Source of the DNA: Leptolyngbyaceae cyanobacterium MO_188.B28
Lineage (GTDB): Bacteria > Cyanobacteriota > Cyanobacteriia > Phormidesmidales > Phormidesmidaceae
Direction of reading: 5' to 3'
DNA length: 35,469 bases
Assembly: GCA_030065175.1 (NCBI GenBank)
Contig: JASJDH010000009.1
Span: forward strand, 1 to 35,469
Shown one piece after another: positions 13,543 through 19,469 of the stretch. How positions within the stretch are numbered: position 1 is the first letter of the stretch; the number at the start of each line of letters is the position of its first letter. The notes under the pieces were generated by a model that was given only the letters and a program-made list of their open reading frames with translations, was not told the origin of the DNA and made no database searches. Position numbers and translations under genes: made by a program.

Positions 13543-13658
13543 AGGGACAGCTTTGAGGCACACCCGGAAGGCTTTTTAATCGCACCTTCTATTCTCTTTC
13601 TTGCTTGGGGGGGGGGTAAGTATGCAAGTTGTTACAAAAAGATGCACGTGGGGGATTT

Positions 13659-13721
13659 AGGGACCGGGTTTCTGTGATAGGTTTATGCCCGATGAATGTC
13701 TTTGGCAGAAACCCGGTCCCT
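13659..13721. repeat. Inverted repeat, 16-bp perfect arms (AGGGACCGGGTTTCTG / CAGAAACCCGGTCCCT)
   Basis: Arms at 13659-13674 and 13706-13721, 31-bp spacer. Part of a palindromic repeat cluster extending to ~13887. Confidence 0.9.
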
Positions 13722-13753
13722 CGCAAGGGGGCGATGAATTTTCGCTGGGTATC

Positions 13754-16700
13754 TCATAGGGCTGGGAGGGGTTGGAATCTGGCGGTAAACGTGCGTGGGG
13801 AGGCGAGATCCCTGGGTTCTTGAAGAACCCAGGGATCTGGGGGCGGATATCTTTGGCAAAACTCGTTCCCTAATGAGGGGCGATTGAAGGCTTTGAAGTC
13901 GGCGATAGCCCCCTGTGTGTCCCCGGTAAGTGCGCGGGCCAAGCCACGACTATCCATGATGTTGCCATTACCAGGATCTAGAGAAACAGCCTTTTCGCAG
14001 GCAAACATAACTTTTTCTGCCTGAAGATTAATACTGCTATACCAACATAGAATATTCCAGCTCTCTACAGGAATACCATCGTCAAGTCCTATGCTTTCTG
14101 CTAACTGATAAGCTTGCACCGCACCTTCAATATCGCCCCTGTCAACTAACTTACGCCCCTCATCCACCAAACTTTCTGCAAGAAAATCAATTTTGAATTC
14201 CTCTTGACCCATTTTTTGCTGTTGCAACCACACAAAAACTCCCGCCCCAAGTGTCATTAAGGCGAGCCCCCCACAAAGCACTGCCACCCATTTCACCTGC
14301 CATTGCTTCTGCTCCGCCTCAAAACGCTTCTGTTGCTCTTCAAAACGCTTTTGTTGTTCCTCAATCCGCCTCTGCTGCTCCTCAAACCTTTCCTGCTCCG
14401 CCGTCGCCCTCAACCGCCGCTCCAGCTCCAGCTCCTCCATCAACGGCTGCTGCGACGAATGAATAAACGCCGCCAAATAATCATGCACCAGCTGATACCG
14501 ATCCGCTGGCGCTTCCGGCTCCTCCATCACCAGTCCCGACTCCGTCAAAATTCGCAGCACCAGCGACAACGCCGTCCCGTCCACCTCCCCTTGACTCGTC
14601 AACGTCCGCAGGTCATCCGCCAAATCAGACTCCGTTTTTAGCGGACGCACCCCCTTCTCATCCGTCAGCAAATACAGCACCCGATTCGCCAACTGCTGAT
14701 TTCCCTCCGGGCCGCAAGCCCTGACAATGTCCGCCAGATAGTTCTGCACCAGCAGTTCCTTTGTCGGCAGATTGGGGTCGCCCCACGCTTGGTAACCCTC
14801 CACCGTGGTAATCCCCTCCGCCTGCAGCTGCGCCCCCACAATCTGCAGCTCAATCGGGCGCACTTCCCCCGCCCCCGCCGCCAAATCCGCCACCACCTGG
14901 TCCACCAGCGCCGGGTCAGGGTGATAAGGCGTCGGGCCAGTCAGGTCATTGAAAACGGCTTTCGTGTCTTTCAGGGTAAAGTTGCCCAGGTAGTAGAGCC
15001 ACTTTTTATCCAGAATATTATTGTCAATAATGTCGAGCTTGGTGAGGCGATCGCACTCCAGCAGATGATGAATATAATCCTCCCGCATCGACAGCACCAC
15101 CTTCACATAGGGCATGGCAAGGCAGTCGCGCAGGAAATCATAGAACGGGCGGCGGGCCGCAGGCTGATCGAACTCAAAGAAAAACTCCTCAAACTGGTCA
15201 AAAATCAACACCATCACCCGATTGCGCTGAGTCTGTCGGTGTAGGAGGTCTAATACCGTTGCAATCTCAGCGGTGTTAGCGTCTTCTTTATCACCAGTAC
15301 TGTCTTGAATCGGTTGAACCCCCTCTAACTCCCCCTTGGCAAGGGGGAGGACCGATGTCTCCCCCCTTACCAAGGGGGAGTTAAGGGGGGGAGAAGATTC
15401 CACACCTCCTGGACCAGATATCTGTCCATGCACATTGCCAGAATGAAACGATGTACTGTCAGAAGCGGATATTAATGACTCCCTTTCCAAAAATTGGGAT
15501 GCAGAAGGATCTGCCTCACTCCCCGAAAGCACCCTGGCTAAATCCTCCACCCAATCTCGGTATCGCCATATATAGACCGGATCCACCCGCCGCACCCCAA
15601 ACCGTTCCTGCGCCAGCGCAGGGGTCAGCCCCGCCTCAATCAACGAACTCTTCCCCACCCCAGACGGCCCATGGATAATCGTCAGGACATATTCATCCTG
15701 AGCCAGCCGCTTCACCAGCCGCTCCACATCATGCTTGCGCCCCGAAGTGAAAATTAAATCCTGCGAATTTTCATCGGCAGGCAAGGCCGGATTGGTGATT
15801 TCTTGCTTCGGCTGCAGTCGCCCCGCCCCGACAAACGCCCGGTAATTGAACCGACTTTCGATCGCATCTTTATGGCGGCGGGTTTCAAACGCTTGCAAAT
15901 ATTTCCCCTGCTGAAAATAGCCCCGCCGCAGGGACTCCAACACACTGCTGTAAAGTTTGGGGTCATATTCCGGATGGGTAATCATCCGCGCCTGTTCAAG
16001 GGTTTGGACAGCAGCGTCAATGTGGCCCTGACCAAACTGGGCTTTTCCTAAAGAAAAGAGATACCAGCTGCAGTGAAAACGATTGACCCAGGCGTAAAAC
16101 ACAGCGTCATCCAGAGAAACTGACGTCGACGACGGGATAAGGCCCAGGGCGGCTTCGGCATGGCGCTGCGCAGTGGACCAATCCTCTTTGGCTAACGCCG
16201 CTTCTGCTAAAAAGCCGACGGCGCGGGCTTGTCGAATCGCATTTCCTTCACTTTGGTGGAGAGCCAGAGCTTTAGCAGCGACGGTTTCCAGCGCTTCCCA
16301 CTGATCTAAACGATGCAGCGCTTCCGCCCAGTAATTAATGTATTTAGCCGCCAGATGGGACTGCTGGACCGTTTCAAACATCTGCACCGCTGCTTCGAAG
16401 TAGTTCCGAGCTTGGTTGCAGGCGGCTTCAAATCCTCGGCGATCGCGTTCGGCCCGATTCCACCACCACCGCCCCAAATAAAACTGCACATGGCCCATAT
16501 TTTCCCGCCAACGCGCATCTGGTTCCGCTCGACCCTCCTCCTGACTTAACAGGGCTTTCCATTGGTCGAGGCTGCGTTCATAGTACTCACGGGCAATGGG
16601 TTTGTTGTTGTCGGCGATGCGTCCCTGGACAAAGGACAGGTCGGCGGATTGGGCTGGCGTCAGTTCAATCTGGTGGGCGGCCAAAACAGCGAGACTGGTT

Positions 16701-17287
16701 TCCAGTTCTCGACTGCGGGGGGAGCCAGGGGACAGTTGCAGCTCCTGAGTGCTGAGAAAACGATTTTCTCGGGACTGCAGCACCTGCCGCCAGACATCCT
16801 GAATCAGGGCATCCAAAAAAGAGAGAAAAAACTCAGGGGGCGTTTCGAAGGTAATGGAATTGCCCCAGGTGTAAAAGTCTGGCGCTGTGCGAATCAGTTG
16901 CTTCAAGCTATCGTCCGTTAACCACAGCACCAGAGGAAAGGGAAATTGGCGAAATTCTTCCCGAATCTGGTTGGTGGCGATGAGCACCTGATCCCGATTT
17001 TGCACGCCGTCTAATCCGTAGACCATCAACGCCTGGGGGGGCGGATCGGCGATCTGATGACGCAAGGTGGTGAATAAGGTGGGACTGGTGGGATTCAGGG
17101 TAATTTCGTCAAAGGGGACAGGACACCGCTGTCGCAACTGGTCCACTAGCGCCCGCCGATGCTGGGTGGAGTTGCACACCGCCAAAATTAGCTCAAACTC
17201 CCCCTGAGAAAACCGCAAGAGACGACAGAGTTCTTCCAAAGATTGCTGGTTGAGGCGATCTCGGTCGGGTGACGAGTCCTCAGACAT
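13754..17287 (-). CDS. STAND NTPase with N-terminal AAA-like/degenerate domain, TPR-like region, nSTAND NTPase, coiled coil, TM helix and C-terminal TPRs
   Basis: 1177 aa. Walker A IIHGPSGVGKSSLIEAG (15644-15670), Walker B VMVLIFDQFEEFFFEF (~15184-15216), winged-helix end YQLVHDYLAAFIHSSQQ, coiled coil EEQQRRIEEQQKRFEEQQKRFEAEQKQW, TM VAVLCGGLALMTLGAGVFVWL, C-terminal TPR GDIEGAVQAYQLAESIGL...DSRGLARALTGDTQGAIADF. ATG overlaps the stop of the upstream ATPase gene. Confidence 0.85.
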   Translation of the reverse strand: MSEDSSPDRDRLNQQSLEELCRLLRFSQGEFELILAVCNSTQHRRALVDQLRQRCPVPFDEITLNPTSPTLFTTLRHQIADPPPQALMVYGLDGVQNRDQVLIATNQIREEFRQFPFPLVLWLTDDSLKQLIRTAPDFYTWGNSITFETPPEFFLSFLDALIQDVWRQVLQSRENRFLSTQELQLSPGSPRSRELETSLAVLAAHQIELTPAQSADLSFVQGRIADNNKPIAREYYERSLDQWKALLSQEEGRAEPDARWRENMGHVQFYLGRWWWNRAERDRRGFEAACNQARNYFEAAVQMFETVQQSHLAAKYINYWAEALHRLDQWEALETVAAKALALHQSEGNAIRQARAVGFLAEAALAKEDWSTAQRHAEAALGLIPSSTSVSLDDAVFYAWVNRFHCSWYLFSLGKAQFGQGHIDAAVQTLEQARMITHPEYDPKLYSSVLESLRRGYFQQGKYLQAFETRRHKDAIESRFNYRAFVGAGRLQPKQEITNPALPADENSQDLIFTSGRKHDVERLVKRLAQDEYVLTIIHGPSGVGKSSLIEAGLTPALAQERFGVRRVDPVYIWRYRDWVEDLARVLSGSEADPSASQFLERESLISASDSTSFHSGNVHGQISGPGGVESSPPLNSPLVRGETSVLPLAKGELEGVQPIQDSTGDKEDANTAEIATVLDLLHRQTQRNRVMVLIFDQFEEFFFEFDQPAARRPFYDFLRDCLAMPYVKVVLSMREDYIHHLLECDRLTKLDIIDNNILDKKWLYYLGNFTLKDTKAVFNDLTGPTPYHPDPALVDQVVADLAAGAGEVRPIELQIVGAQLQAEGITTVEGYQAWGDPNLPTKELLVQNYLADIVRACGPEGNQQLANRVLYLLTDEKGVRPLKTESDLADDLRTLTSQGEVDGTALSLVLRILTESGLVMEEPEAPADRYQLVHDYLAAFIHSSQQPLMEELELERRLRATAEQERFEEQQRRIEEQQKRFEEQQKRFEAEQKQWQVKWVAVLCGGLALMTLGAGVFVWLQQQKMGQEEFKIDFLAESLVDEGRKLVDRGDIEGAVQAYQLAESIGLDDGIPVESWNILCWYSSINLQAEKVMFACEKAVSLDPGNGNIMDSRGLARALTGDTQGAIADFKAFNRPSLGNEFCQRYPPPDPWVLQEPRDLASPRTFTARFQPLPAL
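13806..13838. repeat. Near-perfect palindrome, 16-bp arms with 1-nt centre (AGATCCCTGGGTTCTT-G-AAGAACCCAGGGATCT)
   Basis: Directly readable. Lies inside the 3' end of the STAND ORF. Confidence 0.93.
14319..14381 (-). repeat. Three tandem 21-bp units encoding coiled-coil heptads (EEQQ(K/R)RF/I)
   Basis: tcaaaacgcttctgttgctct / tcaaaacgcttttgttgttcc / tcaatccgcctctgctgctcc in register. Confidence 0.85.
15319..15391. repeat. Palindromic interspersed element inserted in frame within the STAND gene
   Basis: Outer arms ccccctctaactcccccttgg ... ccaagggggagttaagggggg (inverted, about 1-2 mismatches) with internal tcccccttg-gc-aaggggga stem. Encodes SPPLNSPLVRGETSVLPLAKGELEGVQP. Confidence 0.88.
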
Positions 17288-18653
17288 CGGATTTTAGCTC
17301 CTTTGCGGCCAGCAATACCGGATTCACATCGAACCAGGTTTGTCCGGCGTCCCGATATTCAAACACAAACAGGCTGCGCAATAGCGCCTGATATTCCCCC
17401 TCACCCCTCACCGCTTTGGTGCGATGCACCTCCCGCAGTAATGTCCACTCATCCATATCAATCGCCTTGGTCAGGTCGCTCCGCCGCAGACTAATCACCT
17501 GATCCAGCAACGTCTGGGTTAAGGGAGGATCCGCCTTCTTCAGGCAATCGTTGACCAACACCAGCAAATTTCTCACGTGGCCGCCGCTGGACAGACACAG
17601 ACGATCCAGGGTTTCCACCGAATCAAAAATTTTCGTCGCCTGGGCCAGCCGCTGATCTTTCGGCAGGTCGGGAAAGGCGCGGGCCAGAATCATTTGCCGC
17701 AGGGCGGCAAGTCCAGCATCACACGGACTGCCGTCCCGATTTTGGGTGCGCACCATGGGCAACACCTGGGGGCTAGCCCCAAAACGGTTGGCTAGGCTTT
17801 CTTTTTCATTCGAAAACGACAGCACCAGAGGGATGGTGTAAACCAAATGGCAACGGAGCTTTTTCAACTGAGCGCCGCGATCCACAAATAGGTATTCCGG
17901 CTGTCGACGTCCCTGCACCCGGGGTTTATTGTCGATTCGGTCCAGATTGTCCACAATTACCACTAACCCCGCTTTCCCCTGGTCGCGCAGCTGCTGGTTA
18001 GCGGTGTCAATTAGTTCGGTGTTAATCACCTCCAGAATGGTATTAATCCGGGGCTCTAGGTGTTGGCGCAGCAGAGATCGCACATCCTTACTATCCTTCG
18101 CCTTAGTGGTCAACTCACCAATTCCAAAAGATAAGGAATAGACCCCATCTTCAGCACTTATGCCCACCGGATCGGCCACGTTCACCCCGCCGAATTCAGG
18201 CAGTTTCATTTTTAACCCCGTCACTTCCGAATTCAGCAGATCAGCCGCCCCCTGCAGCATCCGCTGAAACCGATTCGGCGCTAAACGGATATTCGACGCT
18301 TCTAAACTTTTGCTGACTTGTTTCGCGATCGCCAGCAAAATATCGCTGATGTCCACATCCCCCATATCCAGGTCGTCAGTGGACTCGAAATATACCACAT
18401 GGTAGCCTTCAGCCTCTAGAGTTTGCTGCAGTCGGGAAAGTTCAGTCGACTTACCGCAGCCAATATGTCCTGTAAATAGCTGACAGGTGGGTTCTTGGCC
18501 CGAGAAGGTAATGGTGCGTTTCAGCTCCCGCACCAGGTCACTGCCCCGCACCTTAGAAAAATCGATATAGAACTTCTCATCGTTGGGGGATTTCAGATTG
18601 AGGGTTTTGCTAGGGTTACACGCTCGGAAAAACCGACCTAGGTCAAATCCCAT
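17280..18653 (-). CDS. P-loop (AAA-like) ATPase paired with the STAND protein
   Basis: 457 aa. Walker A LFTGHIGCGKSTELSRLQ, Walker B LVVIVDNLDRI, C-terminal winged-helix-like region. Stop overlaps the STAND ATG by 8 nt (ATGTCTGA). Confidence 0.85.
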   Translation of the reverse strand: MGFDLGRFFRACNPSKTLNLKSPNDEKFYIDFSKVRGSDLVRELKRTITFSGQEPTCQLFTGHIGCGKSTELSRLQQTLEAEGYHVVYFESTDDLDMGDVDISDILLAIAKQVSKSLEASNIRLAPNRFQRMLQGAADLLNSEVTGLKMKLPEFGGVNVADPVGISAEDGVYSLSFGIGELTTKAKDSKDVRSLLRQHLEPRINTILEVINTELIDTANQQLRDQGKAGLVVIVDNLDRIDNKPRVQGRRQPEYLFVDRGAQLKKLRCHLVYTIPLVLSFSNEKESLANRFGASPQVLPMVRTQNRDGSPCDAGLAALRQMILARAFPDLPKDQRLAQATKIFDSVETLDRLCLSSGGHVRNLLVLVNDCLKKADPPLTQTLLDQVISLRRSDLTKAIDMDEWTLLREVHRTKAVRGEGEYQALLRSLFVFEYRDAGQTWFDVNPVLLAAKELKSDV

Positions 18654-18902: not shown

Positions 18903-19469
18903 ATGGTTCGAACCCACGAAAAACCAGCCAAACCAGCAATATGGACAGTGGCTCGTTATCACCGCGCCATTGAAGCTGGTATATTCACCGATTGGGCTGT
19001 CGAATTATTGAATGGGGTGATTTTTGAAATGAGTCCTGAAGGCCCCTTACATTCCGGGGACATTGGCTCAGCTGATCGGTATCTGCGAAAACTAATCGCA
19101 GAGAATCAAGCCTGGTTTCGCTTGGGGAATCCAGTCACCCTGGAGCGATCCGAACCCGAACCTGATATTGCCATTGTTAAACCGAGCGAGTCTGGCTATA
19201 AAGACCGACATCCATGCCTTAGCGATATCCTACTGATTATTGAATTTTCTGATTCCTCTCTAGAGCGGGATACTGAAGGAGAGAAATATCAAACCTACGC
19301 CATGGAAGGCATCCCAGATTATTGGGTGGTTAACCTCAGGGACAAAGTATTACAGGTAAATCGAGACCCTGATCAGACTGAATACAAAAGCCGACTAATT
19401 TGCGCCTCTGGTTCAATCAAGCCCTTGCTGTTGGATATTCAAATTGATGTTGAAAGGTTGCTAGCGTAG
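18903..19469 (+). CDS. Uma2-family (DUF820) endonuclease-like protein
   Basis: 188 aa. FTDWAVELLNGVIFEMSPEGPLHSGDIG...LERSEPEPDIAIVKP...DILLIIEFSDSSLERDTEGEKYQTYAMEGIPDYWVVNLRDKVLQV matches the Uma2 PD-(D/E)xK-like pattern. Confidence 0.9.
   Translation: MVRTHEKPAKPAIWTVARYHRAIEAGIFTDWAVELLNGVIFEMSPEGPLHSGDIGSADRYLRKLIAENQAWFRLGNPVTLERSEPEPDIAIVKPSESGYKDRHPCLSDILLIIEFSDSSLERDTEGEKYQTYAMEGIPDYWVVNLRDKVLQVNRDPDQTEYKSRLICASGSIKPLLLDIQIDVERLLA

Follow-up and report, generated by a model that had tools for sequence, protein, structure and literature searches.

The question raised by this locus is what two overlapping genes for ATPase-like proteins do together. The window, by which we mean the whole stretch of 35,469 nucleotides that was analysed, is an entire contig, taken from a cyanobacterial assembly that is fragmented and totals 8.48 Mb. 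P1 (17280–18653, minus strand), a 457-aa AAA+ ATPase of the ORC/Cdc6-STAND type with a lid and a winged-helix region (ORF, AAA_22 match, AlphaFold/Foldseek), is followed by P2 (13754–17287, minus strand), its 1177-aa multidomain partner (ORF, Pfam domains). The coding regions share the 8 nt ATGTCTGA (17280–17287, minus strand), which constitute the end of P1 and the start of P2. The two minus-strand ORFs, their lengths and the overlap reported in a preliminary description of this DNA are all present, as are the motifs GHIGCGKST, VVIVDNLDRI, GPSGVGKSS and VLIFDQFEEFF. The arrangement goes beyond chance, since homologues keep the gene order and most members of the closest group of relatives (L009–L019) share the overlap. 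NCBIfam and PADLOC gave only weak matches for the two proteins, and an Rfam scan of the window gave none. A Uma2-family gene (putative endonuclease; window positions 18903–19469) is transcribed divergently from P1 and was not found beside orthologous pairs.

Pfam assigned an AAA_22 domain to P1 (E=8e-7), and its AlphaFold model (pLDDT 92) matched ORC1/Cdc6, CED-4, Apaf-1, RdrA and TnsC in Foldseek searches. Within the Walker A motif GHIGCGKST (18444–18470, minus strand), residues G62, G65, G67 and K68 are invariant in 71 homologues, and the same is true of D235 in the Walker B motif VVIVDNLDRI (17934–17963, minus strand); the homologue alignment also revealed a conserved SGGHVRNL region. Judged from its sequence, P1 is an intact ORC/Cdc6-STAND-type AAA+ ATPase in which every ATPase motif is present. 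Three other identities were considered and rejected: a KAP NTPase, for which the score of 18.1 bits fell below the Pfam gathering cut-off of 20; membership of RADAR, because P1 matches the RdrA fold but the next gene is P2 and there is no RdrB deaminase; and a role in DNA replication, which had fold similarity alone behind it.

The N-terminus of P2, described earlier as AAA-like and degenerate, proved to be an AAA+ core resembling the inactive ORC2. This N-domain (residues 1–171; 16775–17287, minus strand) was delimited using AlphaFold, Foldseek and an alignment of homologues. The AlphaFold model of residues 1–184 (pLDDT 91) displayed a five-stranded AAA+-type core, and the best Foldseek matches were ORC2, ORC3, RFC, Hda and Sir3. 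The TM-scores of the Foldseek comparisons are moderate (0.4–0.55) and therefore place the fold but not the function. The alignment revealed that the P-loop has gone beyond mere mutation, a short CN[YD]xxLR-type loop standing in its place, and the N-domain is therefore a pseudo-ATPase. Residues C38, R109, W122, D137 and F147 are nearly invariant across N-domains; R109, which is kept in 69/73, sits between beta-3 and beta-4, off the usual arginine-finger position. Stand-alone N-domain proteins of about 170–200 aa, without a neighbouring P1, were also observed (L173–L177).

Downstream of the N-domain, a TPR-like helical region (residues about 180–500; 15788–16750, minus strand; TPR_12 at 314–381, E=1e-5) leads into an nSTAND1 NTPase (residues 515–941; 14465–15745, minus strand; Pfam PF20703, E=1.7e-26) that scored 94.2 bits against a gathering cut-off of 27.1. 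Its Walker A motif GPSGVGKSS (15644–15670, minus strand), located by sequence and alignment, is kept in all 61 of the 61 aligned family members, and the full nSTAND core claimed previously is indeed intact. The P1/P2 module thus comprises three AAA+-type domains, namely the active P1, the inactive N-domain and the active nSTAND1. A coiled coil evident from the sequence, EEQQKRFEEQQKRFE (residues about 950–995; 14303–14440, minus strand), precedes the single transmembrane (TM) helix that had been anticipated, found at residues 1001–1019 (14231–14287, minus strand; KD19 = 2.23). The C-terminal TPR-like part (13886–14158, minus strand) aligns to residues 1717–1817 of the L011 and L013 proteins. 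Relatives of P2 measure about 1600–2040 aa and carry a WD40 array of 7–18 blades between the TM helix and this C-terminal part, so that the window protein is a shortened member of its family. WD40 repeats were recognised by Pfam in 42/46 partner C-termini.

An equivalent TM helix follows the nSTAND domain in 49/60 relatives, with 4.5 Lys/Arg residues on the nSTAND side of the helix versus 2.2 on the other. The helix between nSTAND and WD40, and the charge bias towards the nSTAND side, are what would be expected if the module were a physiological hub of large-genome cyanobacteria, engaged in envelope or stress sensing or in filament or cell-type regulation, in which the WD40 array lies across the membrane and senses an envelope cue. 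We consider this explanation unlikely; the variable C-termini are among the properties that fit an accessory module better. The C-terminal part is replaced altogether in the Adonisia P2 orthologue (L018:9367-14913), in which a DUF3352 C-terminus follows a short WD40 array. One variant, L190, has a NACHT-like NTPase with TPRs, and the partners in L128–L147 possess TPRs only. In the P1 tree, the P1 genes with TPR-only partners grouped in a clade of their own with full support, as partner-specific co-inheritance would lead one to expect.

The window copy of P2 departs from this architecture. Its TM segment runs directly into the part that L011 and L013 carry behind their WD40 arrays, which indicates that the array was deleted; L009, the closest relative, has WD40 repeats up to the end of its contig. 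The missing array could be a real deletion or an assembly jump across WD40 repeats in a fragmented assembly. In addition, a palindromic dispersed repeat, identified by genome matches and alignment (15314–15393, no strand assigned), has been inserted into the nSTAND coding sequence with the reading frame preserved. Its matches in the host genome number 34, and several copies align on both strands, as palindromes do. The insert falls between Walker A and Walker B and adds residues such as PPLNSPLVRGE without introducing a stop; this stretch counts 52 residues in the window copy versus 8–30 in 24 relatives. A second dispersed repeat (13640–13880), arranged around a 33-bp palindrome (13806–13838), has dozens of genome matches; the last ~40 residues of P2 are read from it, and it extends downstream of P2.

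These features raise the possibility that the window copy is a decaying, non-functional pseudo-module that has lost its sensor array, gained repeats and had its tail exchanged, a proposal that concerns this copy and is compatible with any of the readings of the family. The missing array, the palindromic insert and the tail overlapping a dispersed repeat all point that way, as does a paralogous P1 in the same genome (C11) that is broken by stop codons. However, the P1 and P2 frames are open, all Walker motifs are intact and the 8-nt overlap is kept, and the deletion itself could be an assembly jump; we therefore regard a dead module as possible but lean against it. The window copy is probably a sensor-less derivative, either decaying or repurposed for another input. 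Since its WD40 sensor is deleted, a family function deduced from the window copy alone would mislead.

To count pairings, a phylum-wide cyanobacterial sample was searched independently with the P1 alignment and with the P2 N-domain alignment. For 60/65 P1 genes, an N-domain gene in the same orientation lies downstream, in most cases no more than about 100 bp away; the spacing ranges from the 8-nt overlap of close relatives to gaps of up to 1.8 kb in others. Conversely, 29/88 N-domain genes were found without a neighbouring P1. Distant P1 relatives occur in 7/120 sampled genomes of Pseudomonadota, the starting genome excluded, and in 5/5 assessable loci, meaning those with enough downstream sequence, the overlapping next gene encodes an N-domain (E 2e-12 to 4e-7), followed by TPRs where scanned. 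The adjacency of homologues, on which the preliminary description had staked its proposal of an obligate two-NTPase unit, is hence evident in both phyla. The pairing stands, and only the word obligate is slightly too strong, because so many N-domains lack a P1 and because a Microcoleus/Kamptonema clade has a lone P1, mostly beside the shikimate dehydrogenase gene aroE. In a MAG labelled Thiomargarita, which may hold misbinned contigs, an N-domain/nSTAND1/WD40 protein (L256:2970-9181) has a 4-nt overlap with a gene for a metallo-beta-lactamase fold, not with P1.

P1 matches number 11 in the host genome and were present in 44/59 genomes of the sample of relatives; at a strict threshold, P1 occurs in about half of 195 sampled cyanobacterial genomes, often in several copies. 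Among filamentous cyanobacteria the pair is a recurrent unit. P1-bearing genomes have a median size of 5.8 Mb, larger than the 4.3 Mb of the others. Genome size, the ordinary genes that flank the pair and the stable position of P1 beside aroE in one clade would again suit a physiological hub, but the patchy presence, the cassette-like movement and the plasmid copies are better explained by an accessory module. When 18 flanking genes of the window were compared with the surroundings of orthologous pairs, none was shared, apart from a single weak hit close to two of the more distant pairs; the pair therefore moves as a cassette. Plasmid copies in Acaryochloris and Nostoc retain the pair, and one of them is located between two recombinase genes.

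Mobility of this kind, with orthologous pairs in unrelated flanks and expanded paralogues, is also what an Avs-like antiviral STAND receptor might display, one that would recognise a phage product through its C-terminal repeats and respond, as a complex, with death or arrest of the cell. The STAND core with its repeat sensor is in keeping with that proposal, and fusions of P1 or a P1-like domain offer links to conflict biology. The L188 operon (L188:2865-10168) encodes a plain P1, then a P1-TIR_2 fusion (698 aa; TIR_2 E=1e-31) whose tail resembles an effector-associated domain (EAD) by eye only, and then an N-N-nSTAND1 protein in which no WD40 was detected; no other TIR or EAD-like fusion was seen among the loci examined. 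On the Nostoc sp. C057 plasmid p057_J (L172:4361-8233), a P1-like ATPase is C-terminal to SAV_2336, with a MoxR ATPase adjoining. A further fusion, in L151, joins P1 to a second nSTAND1-like ATPase.

The neighbourhood of the pair speaks against an antiviral receptor. We used PADLOC to compare 140 flanking proteins of 20 pairs with 137 control proteins encoded 300 kb away on the same contigs. Defence families were not enriched in the flanks over the control (mad3, 6 versus 5), and the control regions were the richer ones (Dpd, ZorD, Cas10 and others). PADLOC returned no strong match for P1 or P2, and P1 had no match in phage records. A nuclease, TIR or other effector is absent from the window pair, as the preliminary description had observed, and from nearly all members. 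The suggestion made there that the pair is a candidate conflict module thus draws no support from its flanks, from PADLOC or from phage records. We regard a conflict role of P1/P2 as plausible and the specific Avs-like receptor as rather improbable; between immunity and physiology, immunity is slightly ahead.

The reading that we favour, with a little better than even confidence, is that P1 and P2 form one AAA+/STAND signalling machine, a mixed active/inactive AAA+ complex that is linked to the membrane and equipped with a replaceable C-terminal sensor. ORC2 is an inactive AAA+ subunit that assembles with active partners, and by analogy the pseudo-ATPase N-domain would dock on P1 to give a mixed assembly of this kind. 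The WD40 or TPR part at the C-terminus of full-length relatives would sense a ligand, whereupon the nSTAND domain would switch and oligomerise and the P1/N-domain part would relay the signal at the membrane. Downstream, recruitment of an effector, such as the TIR domain of one relative, and a role in conflict or cell fate would be the most likely outcomes. Evidence for the signalling machine comes from the pairing in both phyla and on plasmids, the fold evidence, the nSTAND Walker A motif kept in all aligned members, the prevalence of WD40 repeats, the P1 clade with TPR-only partners, the fusions in L151, L188 and L172, and the abundance of P1 in the host genome. Weighing against it are the lone P1 beside aroE, the N-domains without P1, the effector-less window pair, flanks that lack defence enrichment, and TM-scores that are only moderate.

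How the module relates to known machinery can be judged from several systems. Like ORC/Cdc6 and the clamp loaders, which supplied the best Foldseek matches, it has both active and inactive AAA+ subunits, whose sharing of one assembly is inferred for P1/P2; identity is only about 8–16%, and the likeness of P1 and the N-domain is one of fold. In Apaf-1, a STAND switch is followed by a WD40 array. The same order is seen in P2 relatives, and P1 matches CED-4 and Apaf-1 by fold, but the TM helix between STAND and WD40, the separate ATPase partner and the fact that no CARD was found set the family apart from the Apaf-1/CED-4 apoptosome. As in Avs systems, which guard against phage by recognising a phage protein, a STAND NTPase is combined with a C-terminal repeat sensor in the P2 family; unlike Avs, the P2 N-terminus is a P-loop-less AAA+ domain and not an effector, the second ATPase is encoded by a separate gene, and the PADLOC scan of P1 and P2 detected no Avs family at E<=1.

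The closest precedent, compared by its description in the GT4 section and Fig. 6C of PMC8195603, is the nSTAND2 active-plus-inactive two-gene system. In that operon, an active STAND/AAA+ module is paired with one whose nucleotide-binding motifs are eroded and which is fused to variable modules, mostly GT4 or HEPN, and a hetero-multimer was proposed (PMC8195603). The combination of one active and one inactive STAND within an operon of two genes has therefore already been described there. The nSTAND2 modules both keep an arginine finger; the conserved arginine of the N-domain, R109, lies between beta-3 and beta-4. P1/P2 likewise is a two-gene operon with AAA+/STAND modules in both proteins, one of them inactive (the N-domain without a P-loop), but P2 adds an active nSTAND1, and the variable modules of its family combine nSTAND1 with WD40/TPR or are limited to TPRs; the reported Pfam matches of the P2 family include nSTAND1, WD40, TPR and DUF3352, with no GT4 or HEPN among them. 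In the iSTAND/iSTAND2 MoxR-vWA ternary conflict systems, as set out in the relevant sections of PMC7159879 and PMC8195603, an inactive STAND domain is found beside an active AAA+ protein; these systems are enriched in multicellular bacteria, including cyanobacteria, and some are membrane-proximal. They share with P1/P2 the pairing of an inactive domain with an active AAA+ protein, and a P1-like domain occurs in the MoxR/SAV_2336 locus L172, but here the partner ATPase is P1 and not MoxR. No MoxR or vWA was recognised among the Pfam-scanned window genes, and the L172 locus, next to its P1-like domain, was the one place where a MoxR gene was seen. The P1/P2 pairing is not described in those sections of PMC8195603 or PMC7159879, and the N-domain and the pairing are unnamed in Pfam, NCBIfam, PADLOC and the open-access text that was searched, which comprised articles without their supplements.

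Taken further, the signalling machine may exemplify a widespread, undescribed class of membrane-linked receptors, in which a constant two-gene core of active and pseudo-AAA+ proteins is combined with pluggable STAND switches, WD40 or TPR sensors and occasional TIR effectors, giving a bacterial machine that resembles the apoptosome and has expanded in filamentous cyanobacteria; we put this forward tentatively, as a proposal with less than even prospects. P1 and the N-domain represent a defined and testable pair of active ATPase and pseudo-ATPase upstream of a STAND switch whose sensor can be exchanged. This pair would help to settle whether immunity or physiology is served by the large STAND/WD40 repertoires found in filamentous cyanobacteria.
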